Notes: generated by a model from the letters alone, not told the origin. Positions 27,040 through 32,149 are shown, counted from the first letter of the stretch. The stretch is DNA of 38,577 nucleotides from Syntrophaceae bacterium (GCA_003141195.1 PLLC01000096.1:3134-41710), one strand, 5' to 3'. Made by a program: numbers and translations.

Positions 27040-27154
27040 ATGTTCTCGATTAAGCCTTTGCCCGAATTCACCGAATGGCTGGACGGCCTGTCCGATGTGG
27101 CGGTGCGCGGGGTGGTGGTGGCGTGCCAAGGCACTGACTGCGAGGCTGGATTGA
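27040..27154 (+). pseudogene. RelE/HigB-type toxin remnant with internal deletion
   Basis: The first 24 codons (MFSIKPLPEFTEWLDGLSDV and on) match the N-terminus of the RelE-like addiction-module killer proteins, which are usually about 100 residues. The tail RAKALTARLD, stop at 27152-27154, matches their C-terminus but lies in another frame. The middle of about 60 residues, which carries the active site, is missing. The toxin is therefore dead, although its promoter and its partner antitoxin gene remain. If the first frame is read on, it runs into the antitoxin gene. Confidence 0.8.
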
Positions 27155-27169
27155 CTGAAGGAGATGACC

Positions 27170-27460
27170 ATGACCCAACGCATCAAGGTGGCAGACCTGC
27201 CCGAGTTCGACGCAGCGCCGTATCTCGACAGCAAGGCGGCGATTGCGGCCTATCTGACGGACATTCTGGAGGCGAATGATCCGGCCTTGCTGGCGGCCGC
27301 ATTGGGCGACATCGCCCGGGCGCGCGGCATGAACGAGATCGCCAAGGCATCTGGTCTCACCCGCGAAGCCCTGTACAAGGCGCTCAGGCCCAATGCGAAA
27401 CCGCGCTACGACACCATCGCAAAGGTTTGCGGGGCGCTGGGGGTGCGGCTGGTGGCGTAG
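27170..27460 (+). CDS. Addiction-module antidote protein, HigA-like HTH
   Basis: A 96-residue DNA-binding antitoxin of the family paired with RelE-like killers. The N-terminus has DLPEFDAAPYLDSKAAIAAYL, typical of the putative addiction module antidote. The helix-turn-helix follows: LGDIARARGMNEIAKASGLT and REALYKALRPNAKPRYDTIA. It should bind the palindrome at 27014-27031 and repress its own operon. The ATG at 27170 has AAGGAG 6 nt upstream; the ATG at 27164 is too close. With the toxin deleted, it may persist as a self-regulated orphan, or neutralise related toxins elsewhere. Confidence 0.9.
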   Translation: MTQRIKVADLPEFDAAPYLDSKAAIAAYLTDILEANDPALLAAALGDIARARGMNEIAKASGLTREALYKALRPNAKPRYDTIAKVCGALGVRLVA

Positions 27461-27547: not shown

Positions 27548-27832
27548 ATGAAATCTTCCGATTTATTGATCATTCTCCGGCATTATTGCCGGACGTTACG
27601 GGAAGTTCTCTACGGATTCACCACATACGAAATGGACGTTTCCCTGCAGAAGGAGAGGGGAACTCTCAATCATTATTTCACGCTGATCATCTTCGGCGAT
27701 CTTCTCGGACTGCCCTTGCTCCCGCCTTACTACACGTTGAGGCTCCTGCCCCATATCTTTCCGGAGCTGAAGGCGTGGAAACGGAGCATGTTGCGGGAGC
27801 GGGACCTGATGGATAAAGCGACCAACCTGTAG
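27548..27832 (+). CDS. Small ArsA-neighbourhood protein, paralogue A
   Basis: A 94-residue protein with a hydrophobic centre (YFTLIIFGDLLGLPLLPPYY, about 43-62) and a basic C-terminus (WKRSMLRERDL). It is clearly related to the product of 30094-30360: both share GD-LG-P-LPPYY-LRLLP and WKR-MLRE-DL. The two lie outside the ArsA pair, one at each end. A short hydrophobic stretch could associate with membrane or with the ATPases. I recall small proteins next to ArsA ATPases in other bacteria, such as the cory-CC-star family, with a similar LG-P-YY pattern, but homology is unverified. It is transcribed convergently to the ATPases. Confidence 0.75.
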   Translation: MKSSDLLIILRHYCRTLREVLYGFTTYEMDVSLQKERGTLNHYFTLIIFGDLLGLPLLPPYYTLRLLPHIFPELKAWKRSMLRERDLMDKATNL

Positions 27833-27919
27833 AGGGTGCGGCGATCATAGCGCTGCCGTCCCTACGTCGTAATAAGCTTGCCCCTACGAAAGCAGGAGTC
27901 CAGAACTACTTGAATACAC

Positions 27920-27981
27920 TGGATTCCGTATCAAGTACGGAATGACAAAACAGGCCGTAATTGACTTTTTGCGAGTTCATC
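27920..27981. repeat. Short dispersed repeat, copy 3
   Basis: An inverted repeat (GGATTCCGTA...TACGGAATGAC, near 27921-27945) is followed by GACTTTTTGCGAGTTCATC at 27963-27981. The latter is the same repeat type as at 46-68 and 14624-14642. This copy is the most complete in the window. Confidence 0.55.
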
Positions 27982-27985
27982 AAAG

Positions 27986-28016
27986 AAAAAGGCCGGACGA
28001 TCCGTCCGGCCTTTTT
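27986..28016. terminator. Bidirectional intrinsic terminator
   Basis: GGCCGGACG-atc-CGTCCGGCC (27991-28011) is flanked by AAAAA on the left and TTTTT on the right. It should end the minus-strand ArsA operon and can also act on plus-strand transcripts from the small protein gene. Confidence 0.88.
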
Positions 28017-28036
28017 CCATAACGGGTGAGGAGTTC

Positions 28037-29026
28037 TTATTGCTCAGGGACGAAGAGGTATTCGATCGTCCGGTTGAGCATCTTCGCCCCTTTGATCTCC
28101 GTCTCGAGGAGCGGCGCGATCGCCCGGACGCGGTCGCCGAAGAGCTCCCAGATCTCCTTCATGTGCTCTTCCTGCATCAGGATCCTGTTCTTGACGAAGT
28201 CGATGGTGTCCGCGCCGGCCTGATCCTTCTGGATCAGGCCGTTGACGATGACGCCCCCCACGGGGATCCCGAATTCATGGAACCAGTTGATGAACCGGGT
28301 GATGACGGCGATGGGAAGACTCTCCGGCAGCGTGACGAAGAAGAAGGCGGTGAGCGCCTCATCCTTGAGAAGTTCCGCCGCCTTGCCCATCCGGTTCTTG
28401 AAGGCGAGGAGGTCGTCCAGGAGCGGATCCGACTCCTTTTTCTTCGTGTAGGAGAGCAGCTCCCGGAGGGACTTCGCCTCCCCCCGGCTCTTGAGCATCT
28501 TGTCCACCCAGAGGGAGTAGACCTTCGACATCCCCAGGAGCCGCCGGGCGTTGGCCGTCGGCGCGGTGTCGAAGACGTAGAAGTCGTATTCGTCCTTGAA
28601 CATCAGATCGACCATATTCTCGAACATCGCCGATTCCTCGAAGGCCGGGTTCATCGTAGCCGACTCGACGAAGTCGTCGGCCTTGGTCGTGATGTCGGCG
28701 AACTTGAGGAACCAGTTCATCTTTTTCCGGATTTCGTTTTTGGACCGCTCGATCGTGTCCTTGGTGTCGATCTCGAAGGCGTAGCAGTTCTGCTCGTCGC
28801 AGACCACGGCCGCCTTGCCGAAAACGTCCTGCTCCAGGAGGCTGGAGAGGCTGTGGACGGGGTTGGTCGAGGCCAGGAGCGTCTTTTTCCCCTGCTTGGC
28901 GGCCCACAACGCCGCCGTTCCCGCCATGACCGTCTTGCCCACGCCCCCCTTGCCGCCGAAGAAGATGTACTTCATCCGCGGGTGGTTCTTCATGTACTGG
29001 GTCATGCTGGTCGTGATCTGATCCAC
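28037..29026 (-). CDS. ArsA-family ATPase, second gene of the pair
   Basis: A 329-residue P-loop ATPase of the ArsA/GET3 group within the SIMIBI class. The deviant Walker A is GGKGGVGKT at 24-32, with the signature Lys. The switch region reads YVFDTAPTANARRLLGM, whereas ArsA has DTAPTGH; the His is lost here. Family members drive anion export or insert tail-anchored proteins. No ArsB permease or ArsR regulator is nearby, so arsenite export is unlikely. The GTG at 29026 is chosen because GAGGAGG lies 6 nt upstream, whereas the TTG at 29041 overlaps that site. It follows the first ATPase gene by 28 bases and probably forms a heterodimer with its product. Confidence 0.88.
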   Translation of the reverse strand: MDQITTSMTQYMKNHPRMKYIFFGGKGGVGKTVMAGTAALWAAKQGKKTLLASTNPVHSLSSLLEQDVFGKAAVVCDEQNCYAFEIDTKDTIERSKNEIRKKMNWFLKFADITTKADDFVESATMNPAFEESAMFENMVDLMFKDEYDFYVFDTAPTANARRLLGMSKVYSLWVDKMLKSRGEAKSLRELLSYTKKKESDPLLDDLLAFKNRMGKAAELLKDEALTAFFFVTLPESLPIAVITRFINWFHEFGIPVGGVIVNGLIQKDQAGADTIDFVKNRILMQEEHMKEIWELFGDRVRAIAPLLETEIKGAKMLNRTIEYLFVPEQ

Positions 29027-29054
29027 GGTTATCCTCCTCAAACGCTGTATTCCG

Positions 29055-30038
29055 TTAGAAATTTCCGAACATTCCCTTCGCCACCTTCTCGATCATATCG
29101 AGGCCGGTCACGTCCCGTTCCATCTCGGGGACTCGGGCGAGGATCTCCTTCCCGAACCGGTTGTCGATGACCTGAAGGTAGTGCTCCTGCATGGTGATCC
29201 GGTTCTTGAGATACTCGGGGATGTTCTGATCCTTGAGCTCCGCGGGCAGGACCCGGTTGATGATGTAGCCGGAGAGCGGCACGTCGAACTTGGCGAAGAG
29301 TTCCGCCGCCTTGAGCGTGTCGCTGATGATCATCTCCTCCGCGGTGAGGACGAAGAAGAAGGCCGTCATTTTCTTGTCGGTGAGGATCCGCGAGGACTTA
29401 TTGATCCTCTCCTTGATGTAGAGGAGTTCGTTCAGGATGGCGTCCTCGTCGAGCTCCTCCTTGTCTCGGCGGATTACCGCGGCCACCTGGTCGTACTCCC
29501 GCATCTGCTGCCGGAGCCCCGTGATATTGTCGATCCAGCTGTCGTAGACCGAGGCCATGCTGAGGTAATAGAGCGCATGGCCCAAGGGGACCAGATCGTA
29601 GATGTAGTAGTCGTACCCTCCCTTGACAACGATGTCCACCACCTCGTCGAAGATCGCGCTCTCCTCCATCGCCGGCTCCGCCGCCGCCGCCTGGATGTAG
29701 CTTTCGATCTCCTCCGGGATTTTGTCCATCCCGTACATGTCGAGGATCTTCTGGCGGATCTCCTGCTGGTACGCCTTCACCCGCTTGTCCGCGTCGATCT
29801 CCTGGGCGTAGAGGTTGGGTATGATTTCCGTGGGGCCCTTCCCGAAGATGTCCTGTTTGAAAATGTCGCTGAGCGACGCCTGGGGATCGACGGAAAAAAC
29901 GAGGACCTTCTTCCCCTGCTTCGCGAGGTAATAAGCCGTTGCCGCCGAAAAAGTGGTCTTGCCGAGGCCGCCTTTGCCTCCGAACATGATGTATCGCCGG
30001 TCCGGGTACTGCTCAAATATCGTTGTAAGCGATATAAT
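29055..30038 (-). CDS. ArsA-family ATPase, first gene of the pair
   Basis: A 327-residue ATPase (if begun at 30038) related to its downstream neighbour. The Walker A GGKGGLGKTT lies at 20-29 and is intact. The switch region reads YIYDLVPLGHALYYL: it keeps Gly-His but has lost DTAPT, the reverse of the partner. The start is uncertain. AAGGAGG at 30044-30050 is followed by a rare ATT at 30038, which gives an N-terminus matching the partner in length. A GTG at 30044 overlaps the site, and a TTG at 30089 lies inside a palindromic repeat. A membrane or chaperone role is inferred only from family. It is co-transcribed with the small protein gene upstream. Confidence 0.85.
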   Translation of the reverse strand: MISLTTIFEQYPDRRYIMFGGKGGLGKTTFSAATAYYLAKQGKKVLVFSVDPQASLSDIFKQDIFGKGPTEIIPNLYAQEIDADKRVKAYQQEIRQKILDMYGMDKIPEEIESYIQAAAAEPAMEESAIFDEVVDIVVKGGYDYYIYDLVPLGHALYYLSMASVYDSWIDNITGLRQQMREYDQVAAVIRRDKEELDEDAILNELLYIKERINKSSRILTDKKMTAFFFVLTAEEMIISDTLKAAELFAKFDVPLSGYIINRVLPAELKDQNIPEYLKNRITMQEHYLQVIDNRFGKEILARVPEMERDVTGLDMIEKVAKGMFGNF

Positions 30039-30060
30039 AACCACCTCCTTCTTTATATTG

Positions 30061-30089
30061 TTGGGGACAGATTTGAAATCTGTTTCCAA
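30061..30089. repeat. GGGGACAGATTT palindrome, imperfect copy
   Basis: TTGGGGACAGATTT, one base, then AAATCTGTTTCCAA; the arms match at 12 of 14 positions. It is a degenerate copy of the palindrome at 30421-30454. The two flank the small protein gene. Confidence 0.7.
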
Positions 30090-30093
30090 GACC

Positions 30094-30360
30094 CTATGCC
30101 AGGGCGTCCGTCAGATCCTTTTCCCGGAGCATCCGCCGCTTCCACGTGGCGATCTGCGGTACCACGTAGGGCAGAAGCCGCAGCGAATAGTACGGGGGGA
30201 GGATGGGGACGCCAAGCATGTCCCCCATCGTGATGAGGATGAAGAGGTGCTCCATGCTTGCCCGCGATTTCAGGGCAAAACGCGCTGAGTCGTGGGCGGC
30301 GACCCCGTAGGCAAACTCCTTGATAGCCTGAAACAGGCCGCCCTTTTTCTCTTTCGACAT
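30094..30360 (-). CDS. Small ArsA-neighbourhood protein, paralogue B
   Basis: An 88-residue protein related to the product of 27548-27832. The hydrophobic middle (HLFILITMGDMLGVPILPPY, about 37-56) and the basic end (WKRRMLREKDLTD) align between the two. The N-terminal 30 residues differ. AAGGAGTG precedes the ATG at 30360, so the longer frame from 30396 is not used. It is the first gene of the minus-strand unit leading into the two ArsA-type ATPases, so its product is probably their partner, perhaps a membrane anchor. No Cys motif or signal peptide is evident. Confidence 0.8.
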   Translation of the reverse strand: MSKEKKGGLFQAIKEFAYGVAAHDSARFALKSRASMEHLFILITMGDMLGVPILPPYYSLRLLPYVVPQIATWKRRMLREKDLTDALA

Positions 30361-30420: not shown

Positions 30421-30454
30421 GATTGGGGACAGATTTGTAAATCTGTCCCCAATC
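30421..30454. repeat. GGGGACAGATTT palindrome, perfect copy
   Basis: GATTGGGGACAGATTT-gt-AAATCTGTCCCCAATC is a perfect inverted repeat with 16-bp arms. Palindromes with this core are frequent in some proteobacterial genomes and resemble REP-type elements. It lies just after the cstA stop codon. Confidence 0.8.
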
Positions 30455-30463
30455 TCCCAGTCA

Positions 30464-32149
30464 TTACGCCTTCGCCGGCGCCCCCTGTGCCTTCAGGGCC
30501 CGGAGGCGGTTGAACGCCTTGAACCCCTCATAGCCGAGGATCAGGGCGCAGATGACGAGGAAGAACCCCACCAGCCCCATCAGCAGGTTTCCCACGAACG
30601 CCTCGCCCTGGACGCCGCCCCCGAAGACCTTTCCGAGGAGACTCCAGGAGGTGTAGAGGAGCGCCGCCACGGTGGTGACGAACATGAAGATCATCGGATA
30701 GAAGGTCCAGGCATAGCTCTTCCCTTCCGACATCAGCCAGACGGTGACCAGCATCAGGGCCAGAGACGCCATGAGCTGGTTCGCGCCGCCGAAGAGGACC
30801 CACAGGTACTGCCACCACCCCGTCAGAACGAGGATGATGCCGAGGACGCTCGCGATAAAGGTGCCGACATGGGGGTTCCGGAAGACCGGGCTGACGTCGC
30901 TCAGCAGTTCGGAGGTGGCTACCCTCATGAAGCGCATGACGAGCTGCATGATGGTGATCGCGAGCACGATCATCATGACGCTCCCGTAAGATTTTCCGAT
31001 GTCCGCCGGCATCCCCAGGGCGCCCAGGAACTTGGAGACCCCTGCTGCGAAGACGCCGCCCGGTCCCAGCTTAACGGCCGCTCCGTATTCCACGGGGGAG
31101 GCGAAAATCGTGCCGGCGATGATCAGTGCGAAGATGGCGAGCATCATCTCCACGAACATCACCCCGCCGCCGACGGGACGGGCGTCGAGCTCATTCTCCA
31201 ACTGCCGGGCAGTTCCCGAGCTGGAGACGATGCTGTGCCAGCCGGAGATCGACCCGCAGGCGATGGTCACGAACAGGATCGGCCAGAGCGGTCCGATACC
31301 GATGGAGAAACCCGTATAGGCGGGAAGTGTGAAGTCAGGGTGCAGGATGAAGATCCCGATGATCCCGAAAAAGAGCCCGAGAAAAACGATGTAAGAGGCC
31401 ACATAGTTGATCGGCAGCGCGAAACGCCAGATCGGCAGAACCGCAGCGAAGTAGCAGAAGACGAAAGCGACGATTGCCCAGACGGGCCGGCTGCTGGCTA
31501 TGGACGCCCCGAGGACCTGGTCGGAGGGAAGGATGGTGCCGAGATAGATGCCGAGGAGGGCGATCACCACGGTCACGACGGTCGTCAGGATGATGTCCTT
31601 GCGCCACTTGTAAATCATCTGGCCGGCGAGGATGCCGCCGATCGTCAGGAAGAGCCAGGCCATCGGGGCCGCCTTGAGTCCGACGGCCGTGCTGACCACG
31701 ACATTCCCGAACGCCCCGGCGATGAGGAGCAGGTAGAAATAGATGAACGCCAGGAGGATAACGCGGGCGCGGGGCGAGATCAGCTTGTGGCTCAACCCGC
31801 CGAAGGAGGCGCCGTCGTTCCGCATGGCCACCATCATGCTGGAGTAGTCCTGAACCCAGCCGATGAATAAGGCGCCCCCCAGGATCCAGACCAGGGCGGG
31901 CAACCAGCCCCACTGGATCGCGATGATCGGGCCGATGATCGGCGCGGCGCCCGCGATCGACTTGAACTGGTAGCCGAAGAGGACGTTTCTGTTGGTGGGC
32001 ATGAATTCCACCCCATCCATATACATCTTCGCCGGGGTGGCCCTTTGTGGATCGGATTTGATGATCTTCGCGTCGATGTATTTGGCATAGACGCGATACC
32101 CGAGAAAAGCGACAACAAATCCCAAAATTAGAACAATGACTGAATTCAT
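30464..32149 (-). CDS. cstA: Carbon starvation protein A family transporter
   Basis: A 561-residue polytopic membrane protein with about 14-16 hydrophobic segments. Family landmarks include RATPAKMYMDGVEFMPTN near the N-terminus, FKSIAGAAPIIGPIIAIQWG (about 65-84), and the central GSISGWHSIVSSSGTARQLE near 300. CstA proteins transport pyruvate or peptides and are often induced by carbon limitation. It is shorter than the E. coli protein (about 700 residues), as are many anaerobe homologues. A candidate promoter lies about 240 bases upstream. The next gene upstream on the same strand is a radical SAM protein, 354 bases away, so cstA is probably its own unit, ended by the terminator at 30377. 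Confidence 0.93.
   Translation of the reverse strand: MNSVIVLILGFVVAFLGYRVYAKYIDAKIIKSDPQRATPAKMYMDGVEFMPTNRNVLFGYQFKSIAGAAPIIGPIIAIQWGWLPALVWILGGALFIGWVQDYSSMMVAMRNDGASFGGLSHKLISPRARVILLAFIYFYLLLIAGAFGNVVVSTAVGLKAAPMAWLFLTIGGILAGQMIYKWRKDIILTTVVTVVIALLGIYLGTILPSDQVLGASIASSRPVWAIVAFVFCYFAAVLPIWRFALPINYVASYIVFLGLFFGIIGIFILHPDFTLPAYTGFSIGIGPLWPILFVTIACGSISGWHSIVSSSGTARQLENELDARPVGGGVMFVEMMLAIFALIIAGTIFASPVEYGAAVKLGPGGVFAAGVSKFLGALGMPADIGKSYGSVMMIVLAITIMQLVMRFMRVATSELLSDVSPVFRNPHVGTFIASVLGIILVLTGWWQYLWVLFGGANQLMASLALMLVTVWLMSEGKSYAWTFYPMIFMFVTTVAALLYTSWSLLGKVFGGGVQGEAFVGNLLMGLVGFFLVICALILGYEGFKAFNRLRALKAQGAPAKA

Follow-up and report, generated by a model that had tools for sequence, protein, structure and literature searches.

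A reciprocally altered pair of ArsA-type ATPases encoded beside a CstA-family carrier in several bacterial phyla

A 38,577-nucleotide stretch of DNA from a Syntrophaceae bacterium (GCA_003141195.1, PLLC01000096.1:3134-41710; we call this whole stretch the window) encodes a CstA-family transporter, two related small proteins of the CstX type (s1 and s2), and two ArsA-type ATPases (A and B). On the minus strand, the order of transcription is cstA, s1, ATPase A, and ATPase B, while s2 is on the plus strand. An initial annotation of positions 27,548 to 30,360, made from the sequence alone, reported the two ArsA-family genes and the two small-protein genes, and all four open reading frames (ORFs) are where it placed them. 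It was also correct that there are no arsenic genes nearby. It overlooked the immediate upstream neighbor, cstA, which explains the system. The features of the cluster are:

30464..32149, minus strand: CstA-family transporter (PF02554; 561 amino acids; Pfam E = 3.3e-142, 475 bits), the first gene of the cluster
30094..30360, minus strand: small protein s1 (CstX / cory-CC-star superfamily; 88 amino acids), starting at ATG 30360 in an ORF that is open to 30396
29055..30035, minus strand: ATPase A (PF02374, 235.6 bits), the predicted hydrolytic subunit, in an ORF annotated as 29055-30089
28037..29026, minus strand: ATPase B (PF02374, 220.4 bits), the predicted non-hydrolyzing subunit, probably starting at GTG 29026 in an ORF that is open to 29041
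27548..27832, plus strand: small protein s2, a paralog of s1 (NF041419, 34.4 bits), convergent with ATPase B

The two ATPases are both full-length members of PF02374 and are 33% identical to each other; s1 and s2 are 47% identical across 75 amino acids (E = 9e-21). We did not find any other full-length ArsA in this genome, and this is its only copy of CstA.

Both ATPases have intact P-loops, including the signature lysine, as do all of the 74 A and 69 B sequences that we compared. The initial annotation described complementary changes in the switch motif, and these are present: switch II of the window's ATPase A is DLVPLGHALYYL, which keeps the Gly-His but has lost DTAPT, while that of B is DTAPTANARRLL, which keeps DTAPT but has lost the Gly-His. 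It missed the change in switch I, where the catalytic aspartate is replaced by asparagine in B (STNPVHSLS); A carries VDPQASLSD. Among the A proteins, switch I is FSVDPQAS (FSADPQAS in one sequence), with the aspartate in 74/74, and switch II is YDLVPLGHALYYL in 73/74. Among the B proteins, asparagine replaces the aspartate in 69/69 (ASTNPVHSLS), and switch II is FDTAPTANARRLL in 66/69. These patterns are kept across the A and B sequences compared, so the asymmetry is fixed across loci and is not a matter of chance variants in one genome.

In HMMER alignments, the switch-I residues of A and B align with STDPAHSLS/STDPAHSLR of the archaeal Get3 structures 3ZQ6/3UG6. The position of B's asparagine corresponds to D57 of yeast Get3. 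In Get3, the D57N substitution leaves ATP bound but not hydrolyzed (PMC12506534). B's asparagine is the natural equivalent of this hydrolysis-dead mutant. The window's ATPase A does not contain any cysteines, so it has no ArsA metalloid site, and the only cysteines in B are C81 and C86. These two residues (CDEQNC) are cysteines in about 70% of B proteins, are absent from A, and do not correspond to any metal motif known in this family.

In a phylogenetic tree of 87 ArsA sequences, A and B form sister clades (support of 99 for A, 100 for B, and 98 for the two together), and Desulfobacterota, Chloroflexota, Bacillota, Planctomycetota, and Latescibacterota are present in both. A and B thus arose by one old duplication and were later inherited jointly. 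The pairwise distances within A and B are correlated (r = 0.94, to which shared ancestry contributes). The tree also includes fused double-domain ArsA-like proteins of 630-720 amino acids (L171-L176, L180, L181, and L183), which are outside the L170/L182 clade, and, in a clade of their own, single ArsA-fold proteins (L177, L178, and L179) with STDPAGS or STDPSGS at switch I, which are not encoded next to CstA. The initial annotation had suggested that each ATPase supplies what the other lacks. As an evolutionary pattern, this idea is well supported: the fixed complementary changes and the separate clades fit a heterodimer. That A and B form an obligate physical heterodimer with one firing site is what we infer from the fixed asymmetry.

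To see which genes travel with this system, we scanned one genome per species (about 85,000 species), and we kept the best 80 of 352 relatives of the small protein. Most of the loci are from metagenome-assembled genomes, and Archaea were outside the scan. The query was the small protein alone, so linkage to the ATPases or to CstA was not selected for. Among these best 80 of 352, ATPase A follows s1 in all 72 of the loci where the contig permits the test, ATPase B follows in 61 of 62 testable loci, and CstA is upstream of s1 on the same strand in 68 of 74. Of the six loci that lack a same-strand CstA upstream, two (L107 and L108) have CstA nearby but inverted, and these CstA proteins belong to the same clade. 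ATPase B was never seen without A, and no further neighbor recurs in more than 7 of the 80 loci. The small family is therefore not one that lacks ArsA genes in most genomes. Five loci (L067, L082, L091, L094, and L102) have what look by eye like Phd-like antitoxin and HEPN-like genes between s1 and A, with the order of the cluster unchanged.

A second sample comprised 155 genomes from the window's class. In these genomes, 44 of the 54 matches to the small protein are directly downstream of CstA, and the others are copies of the s2 type or are at contig ends. CstA is present in each of the 47 genomes that encode the small protein, versus 93 of 155 overall (hypergeometric P = 6e-14, which is nominal as the genomes are related). 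Of the 56 single-domain ArsA genes in this sample, 51 are found no more than 2.5 kb downstream of CstA. The set is kept together beside CstA in several bacterial phyla and so probably acts as a complex that partners CstA and uses ATP, not as an uncharacterized membrane-protein chaperone.

By its predicted structure, the window's CstA is a secondary carrier: for the AlphaFold model (predicted local distance difference test score, pLDDT, of 83), the top matches in the PDB from Foldseek were all carriers with the LeuT/APC fold. It lies within a clade (support of 100) of CstA proteins that have the ATPase pair. Across the tree of CstA proteins, those with the pair, those of a type II form, those with cory-CC-star, those linked to YbdD, and those without partners separate cleanly, which indicates that the partner set follows the CstA subfamily. 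Even within one genome (G091), a type II CstA with partners is found along with a CstA that has none. The type II form, which is found in most of the genomes of the class that have the system, comprises CstA together with a divergent small protein and a single ArsA. This ArsA is canonical, with SLDPAHN in those proteins where switch I was matched (17 of 20) and DTPPTGLTLRFL at switch II in 20/20. Plasmids from Paracoccus, Cytobacillus, and Pseudochrobactrum encode CstA, an annotated cory-CC-star protein, and one canonical ArsA. The window represents a third form, with an ATPase pair. On haloarchaeal plasmids, no annotated CstX or ArsA is adjacent to the CstA genes. E. coli CstA requires a small partner, YbdD, for pyruvate import (PMC5847655), but we did not find the YbdD/YjiX family (PF04328) in any of the 155 genomes of the class.

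Neither s1 nor s2 belongs to any family in Pfam. Against the cory-CC-star model (NF041419), s1 scores 36.2 bits and s2 scores 34.4 bits, which is under the cut-off of 80 bits; a true member scores 128. Nevertheless, a profile of s1/s2 matches the annotated cory-CC-star proteins (hhalign probability 97.8%, E = 7e-13), so the core is homologous, and the small families of the pair form, type II, and cory-CC-star make up one superfamily (hhalign 97.8, 95, and 93%). The C-terminal Cys-Cys is absent: s1 ends in DALA and s2 in TNL, while annotated cory-CC-star proteins end in RCC. Profile comparison revealed no homology of s1/s2 to YbdD/YjiX (hhalign 0.3% and no Pfam match). Canonical cory-CC-star and YbdD have a terminal Cys-Cys in common, but the alignment there spans only 8 columns and s1/s2 lack the Cys-Cys. 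The AlphaFold model of s1 is all helical but is a weak prediction (pLDDT 67; predicted template modeling score 0.32), and Foldseek found nothing significant with it. The central hydrophobic stretch of the CstX proteins has a best 19-residue Kyte-Doolittle mean of 1.4-1.8 and, in s1/s2, contains Asp and Pro. The median identity is highest for s1 (0.86), followed by A (0.84), B (0.78), and CstA (0.76), although s1 was the search query, which favors it. A search of plasmids with s1 gave no match.

At least two matches to the small proteins are present in 36 of the 48 genomes with the ATPase pair: one of the s1 type and usually one of the s2 type (three of the second matches are partial or weak). 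The position of s2 varies: it is a tandem copy in several loci of Chloroflexota, lies beyond B in the opposite orientation in four loci as well as in the window, and is otherwise unlinked, as in many Desulfobacterota. So, while small genes do bracket the ATPases in the window, as first described, this is not the general layout, and we regard it as a local accident. Solitary s2-type genes are also found away from CstA (L151:5431-5727, L153:5791-6078, L150:4002-4325, and L152:6036-6410); by eye, one of these is against an apparent 2-oxoacid:ferredoxin oxidoreductase operon and another is near apparent leucine biosynthesis genes. In the window, s2 adjoins an antitoxin of the HI1420 type (TIGR02684, 115.8 bits; 27164-27460, plus strand), and upstream of that, the ORF at 27040-27279 is a toxin-like frame that appears by eye to be broken. 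There were no matches to RNA families within 27-33 kb of the window.

ATPase A appears to begin at a rare codon, which is AUU or AUA in the window. The relevant features are:

30033-30035, minus strand: ATA, the probable start of ATPase A from the start codon analysis; the alternative is ATT at 30036-30038
30042..30050, minus strand: extended Shine-Dalgarno sequence of ATPase A, AAGGAGGTG
30425..30450, no strand: perfect inverted repeat GGGGACAGATTTGTAAATCTGTCCCC, in the gap between cstA and s1

The candidate start is 18 codons ahead of the P-loop, where the A genes of Chloroflexota and Bacillota mostly have ATG, TTG, or GTG. In a strict tally of this codon in 70 A genes, 45 have ATT, 3 have ATA (including the window), and 3 have ATC. 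Overall, about 53 of 74 A loci have a putative AUU, AUA, or AUC (AUH) start, and in 51 of these 53, a Shine-Dalgarno core lies 6-8 nucleotides ahead of the codon. In 14 loci (L044, L048, L054, L067, L074, L082, L090, L091, L093, L094, L102, L105, L107, and L108), the segment from the preceding in-frame stop to the AUH codon contains no ATG, GTG, or TTG, which leaves no conventional start available upstream. The next ATG is codon 17, within the strand that enters the P-loop, and the residues preceding it are conserved as protein. For comparison, B has a normal start with a Shine-Dalgarno sequence in 72/73 genes, and an NTG start is available in 64/65 s1 genes and in 23/23 type II ArsA genes. 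The mean Shine-Dalgarno duplex is -16.4 kcal/mol for A genes with AUH starts (n = 52) versus -8.7 for A genes with NUG starts (n = 22) and -10.1 for B. About 4 changes on the tree account for the 53 AUH rows; because these loci are related, P values for the start codons are nominal. In other genes, AUU or AUA with an extended Shine-Dalgarno sequence gave about 10% of the yield of AUG, and one such gene was medium-dependent, as measured in 2026 (PMC13009471). A gene finder would choose TTG 30089 for ATPase A, but this codon is in a degenerate copy (around 30060-30090) of the inverted repeat GGGGACAGATTTGTAAATCTGTCCCC, which probably creates a false start.

We propose that the cluster encodes a single multi-subunit transporter, in which A and B, acting via CstX, use ATP to energize or gate the LeuT-fold CstA; we give this a probability of roughly 64%. 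The components would be the CstA carrier, two CstX-type linkers (s1 and s2), and a heterodimeric ArsA-type ATPase that holds nucleotide at the common A-B interface. The sole site able to hydrolyze ATP would comprise A's P-loop and switch-I aspartate, with B's signature lysine in trans. The site based on B, as the equivalent of D57N, would hold ATP without turnover, much as asymmetric ABC transporters do at their degenerate site. CstX would relay the ATPase cycle to CstA, which would be driven or gated by it. The substrate may be pyruvate, a peptide, or another small carboxylate. Several observations weigh against this proposal. Other CstA proteins function without an ATPase, so energizing may be unnecessary; the altered switch II of A (DLVPLGH) leaves its activity uncertain; s2 was not found in 12 of the 48 genomes with the pair and often lies at a great distance; and neither co-occurrence nor co-evolution is proof of contact. 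More tentatively, and with the odds somewhat against it, an obligate one-site ArsA heterodimer might make CstA ATP-powered or ATP-gated while the conserved AUU/AUA start sets the level of the hydrolytic subunit, which would tie the pump to nutrient state. If true, the one-site heterodimer would be a counterpart of the degenerate-site ABC transporters.

The strongest alternative shares the anatomy of this proposal and is a weaker form of it: A/B might act as a nucleotide-sensing gate, whose ATP- or ADP-bound state opens or closes CstA according to energy state, with CstA remaining a proton symporter without stoichiometric coupling. That CstA belongs to the carbon-starvation family and that one fixed non-hydrolyzing site suits a sensor are both consistent with gating, as is the weak start codon of the hydrolytic subunit, given that the growth medium affects the use of such a start for one or more other genes (PMC13009471). 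Sequence alone does not separate a gate from an energizer, and we consider a pure gate unlikely but worth serious consideration. We think it distinctly improbable that the A/B dimer is a Get3-like chaperone, without a role in transport, that captures and inserts CstA or the small hydrophobic CstX proteins. The nearest solved structures are indeed archaeal Get3 proteins (3UG6 and 3ZQ6), both ATPases exceed the cut-off of 135 bits for TIGR00345 (GET3/ArsA; 205 and 229 bits), and CstX has a hydrophobic stretch in mid-protein. But this stretch is central and weakly hydrophobic, with Asp and Pro in s1/s2, unlike a tail anchor; where archaeal Get3 has its CxxC (CDFC), A has IPEYL and B has TIDFV, neither with a cysteine; and the system is linked to a single transporter family, in which subfamilies without an ATPase are common.

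Nor do we favor two separate homodimers with different jobs, which seems quite improbable. Homodimers were suggested in PMC2963123, and the CstX-linked ArsA proteins of type II and canonical cory-CC-star loci are encoded by single genes and are presumably homodimeric. However, a B-B dimer would lack the switch-I aspartate and an A-A dimer would lack a normal switch II, and B is never seen without A, with both fixed in every locus. A system for arsenic or metalloid efflux is hardly credible: the family name of PF02374 points that way, but there are no ars genes and no metalloid cysteines (C113, C172, and C422), the proteins have a single domain, and they are linked to CstA (compare PMC2963123). 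We also rejected a role in anti-phage defense, to which only one PADLOC candidate pointed, matched weakly at the P-loop.

The cluster in the window is a variant form of the CstA-CstX-ArsA operons, which Castillo and Saier described computationally in 2010 (clusters 14-18 in PMC2963123); NCBI's name for the canonical CstX is "cory-CC-star." The gene content matches: CstA is beside CstX, the ArsA proteins have a single domain of about 330 amino acids, and there are no arsenic genes. Its cluster 15 (Pyrobaculum arsenaticum and Symbiobacterium thermophilum) includes adjacent ArsA pairs, with two CstX in P. arsenaticum. That paper also proposes, independently, that ArsA energizes CstA through CstX, and it notes the replacement of Asp by Asn in some single-domain proteins. 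In the literature searched, we found no other paper that names both CstX and CstA. This published association, along with the linkage to a carrier and the absence of the Get3 CxxC, is why the idea of a membrane-protein-handling system in the initial annotation is not supported, while its alternative wording, a transport system, was the better half. The sections of the 2010 paper that we cite do not describe a fixed reciprocal loss of motifs, strict co-inheritance of such a pair, a non-hydrolyzing subunit, or an AUU start. What is new here is the fixed reciprocal asymmetry of A and B from one old duplication, a partner set that tracks the CstA subfamily, and the putative AUU/AUA/AUC start of A. 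Because a hydrolysis-blocking residue is fixed in one subunit across several phyla, a division of labor between two sites could be tested with single point changes. The cluster also offers a concrete gene set with a conserved AUU/AUA/AUC start, and gene finders are likely to misplace such starts.

The textbook example of a carrier made into a pump by an ATPase is ArsA-ArsB. An ATPase acting on CstA would be the second such case, as proposed since 2010 (PMC2963123). As in the cluster in the window, the carrier of the ArsA-ArsB pump is served by a PF02374 ATPase whose two nucleotide sites are not identical. But that ArsA is fused and has metalloid cysteines, whereas the window has two genes, no metalloid site, and an unrelated carrier; A and B score 97-101 bits against the model for the fused pump ATPase (TIGR04291), with a cut-off of 650. 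Get3/TRC40 proteins are the best structural relatives of A and B, with a homologous switch I in which D57N blocks hydrolysis, but A and B differ in lacking the CxxC, in their predicted heterodimer, and in their transporter context. The mycobacterial BagA-BagB (Rv3679-Rv3680, PDB 6BS3) are two different ArsA-fold ATPases that were solved in one entry, but the sequence match is weak (A and B score 40-54 bits against NF053622/NF053621, with cut-offs of 400 and 521). We know of no link between BagA-BagB and CstA. CstA-YbdD and BtsT-YjiX of E. coli likewise combine a CstA-family carrier with a small partner, but they have no ArsA, and YbdD/YjiX are not detectably homologous to s1/s2. Finally, cory-CC-star proteins are homologous to s1/s2 and are likewise encoded between CstA and ArsA in Paracoccus, Cytobacillus, and Pseudochrobactrum; unlike the members of that family, s1/s2 score just 34-36 bits and do not have the C-terminal Cys-Cys.

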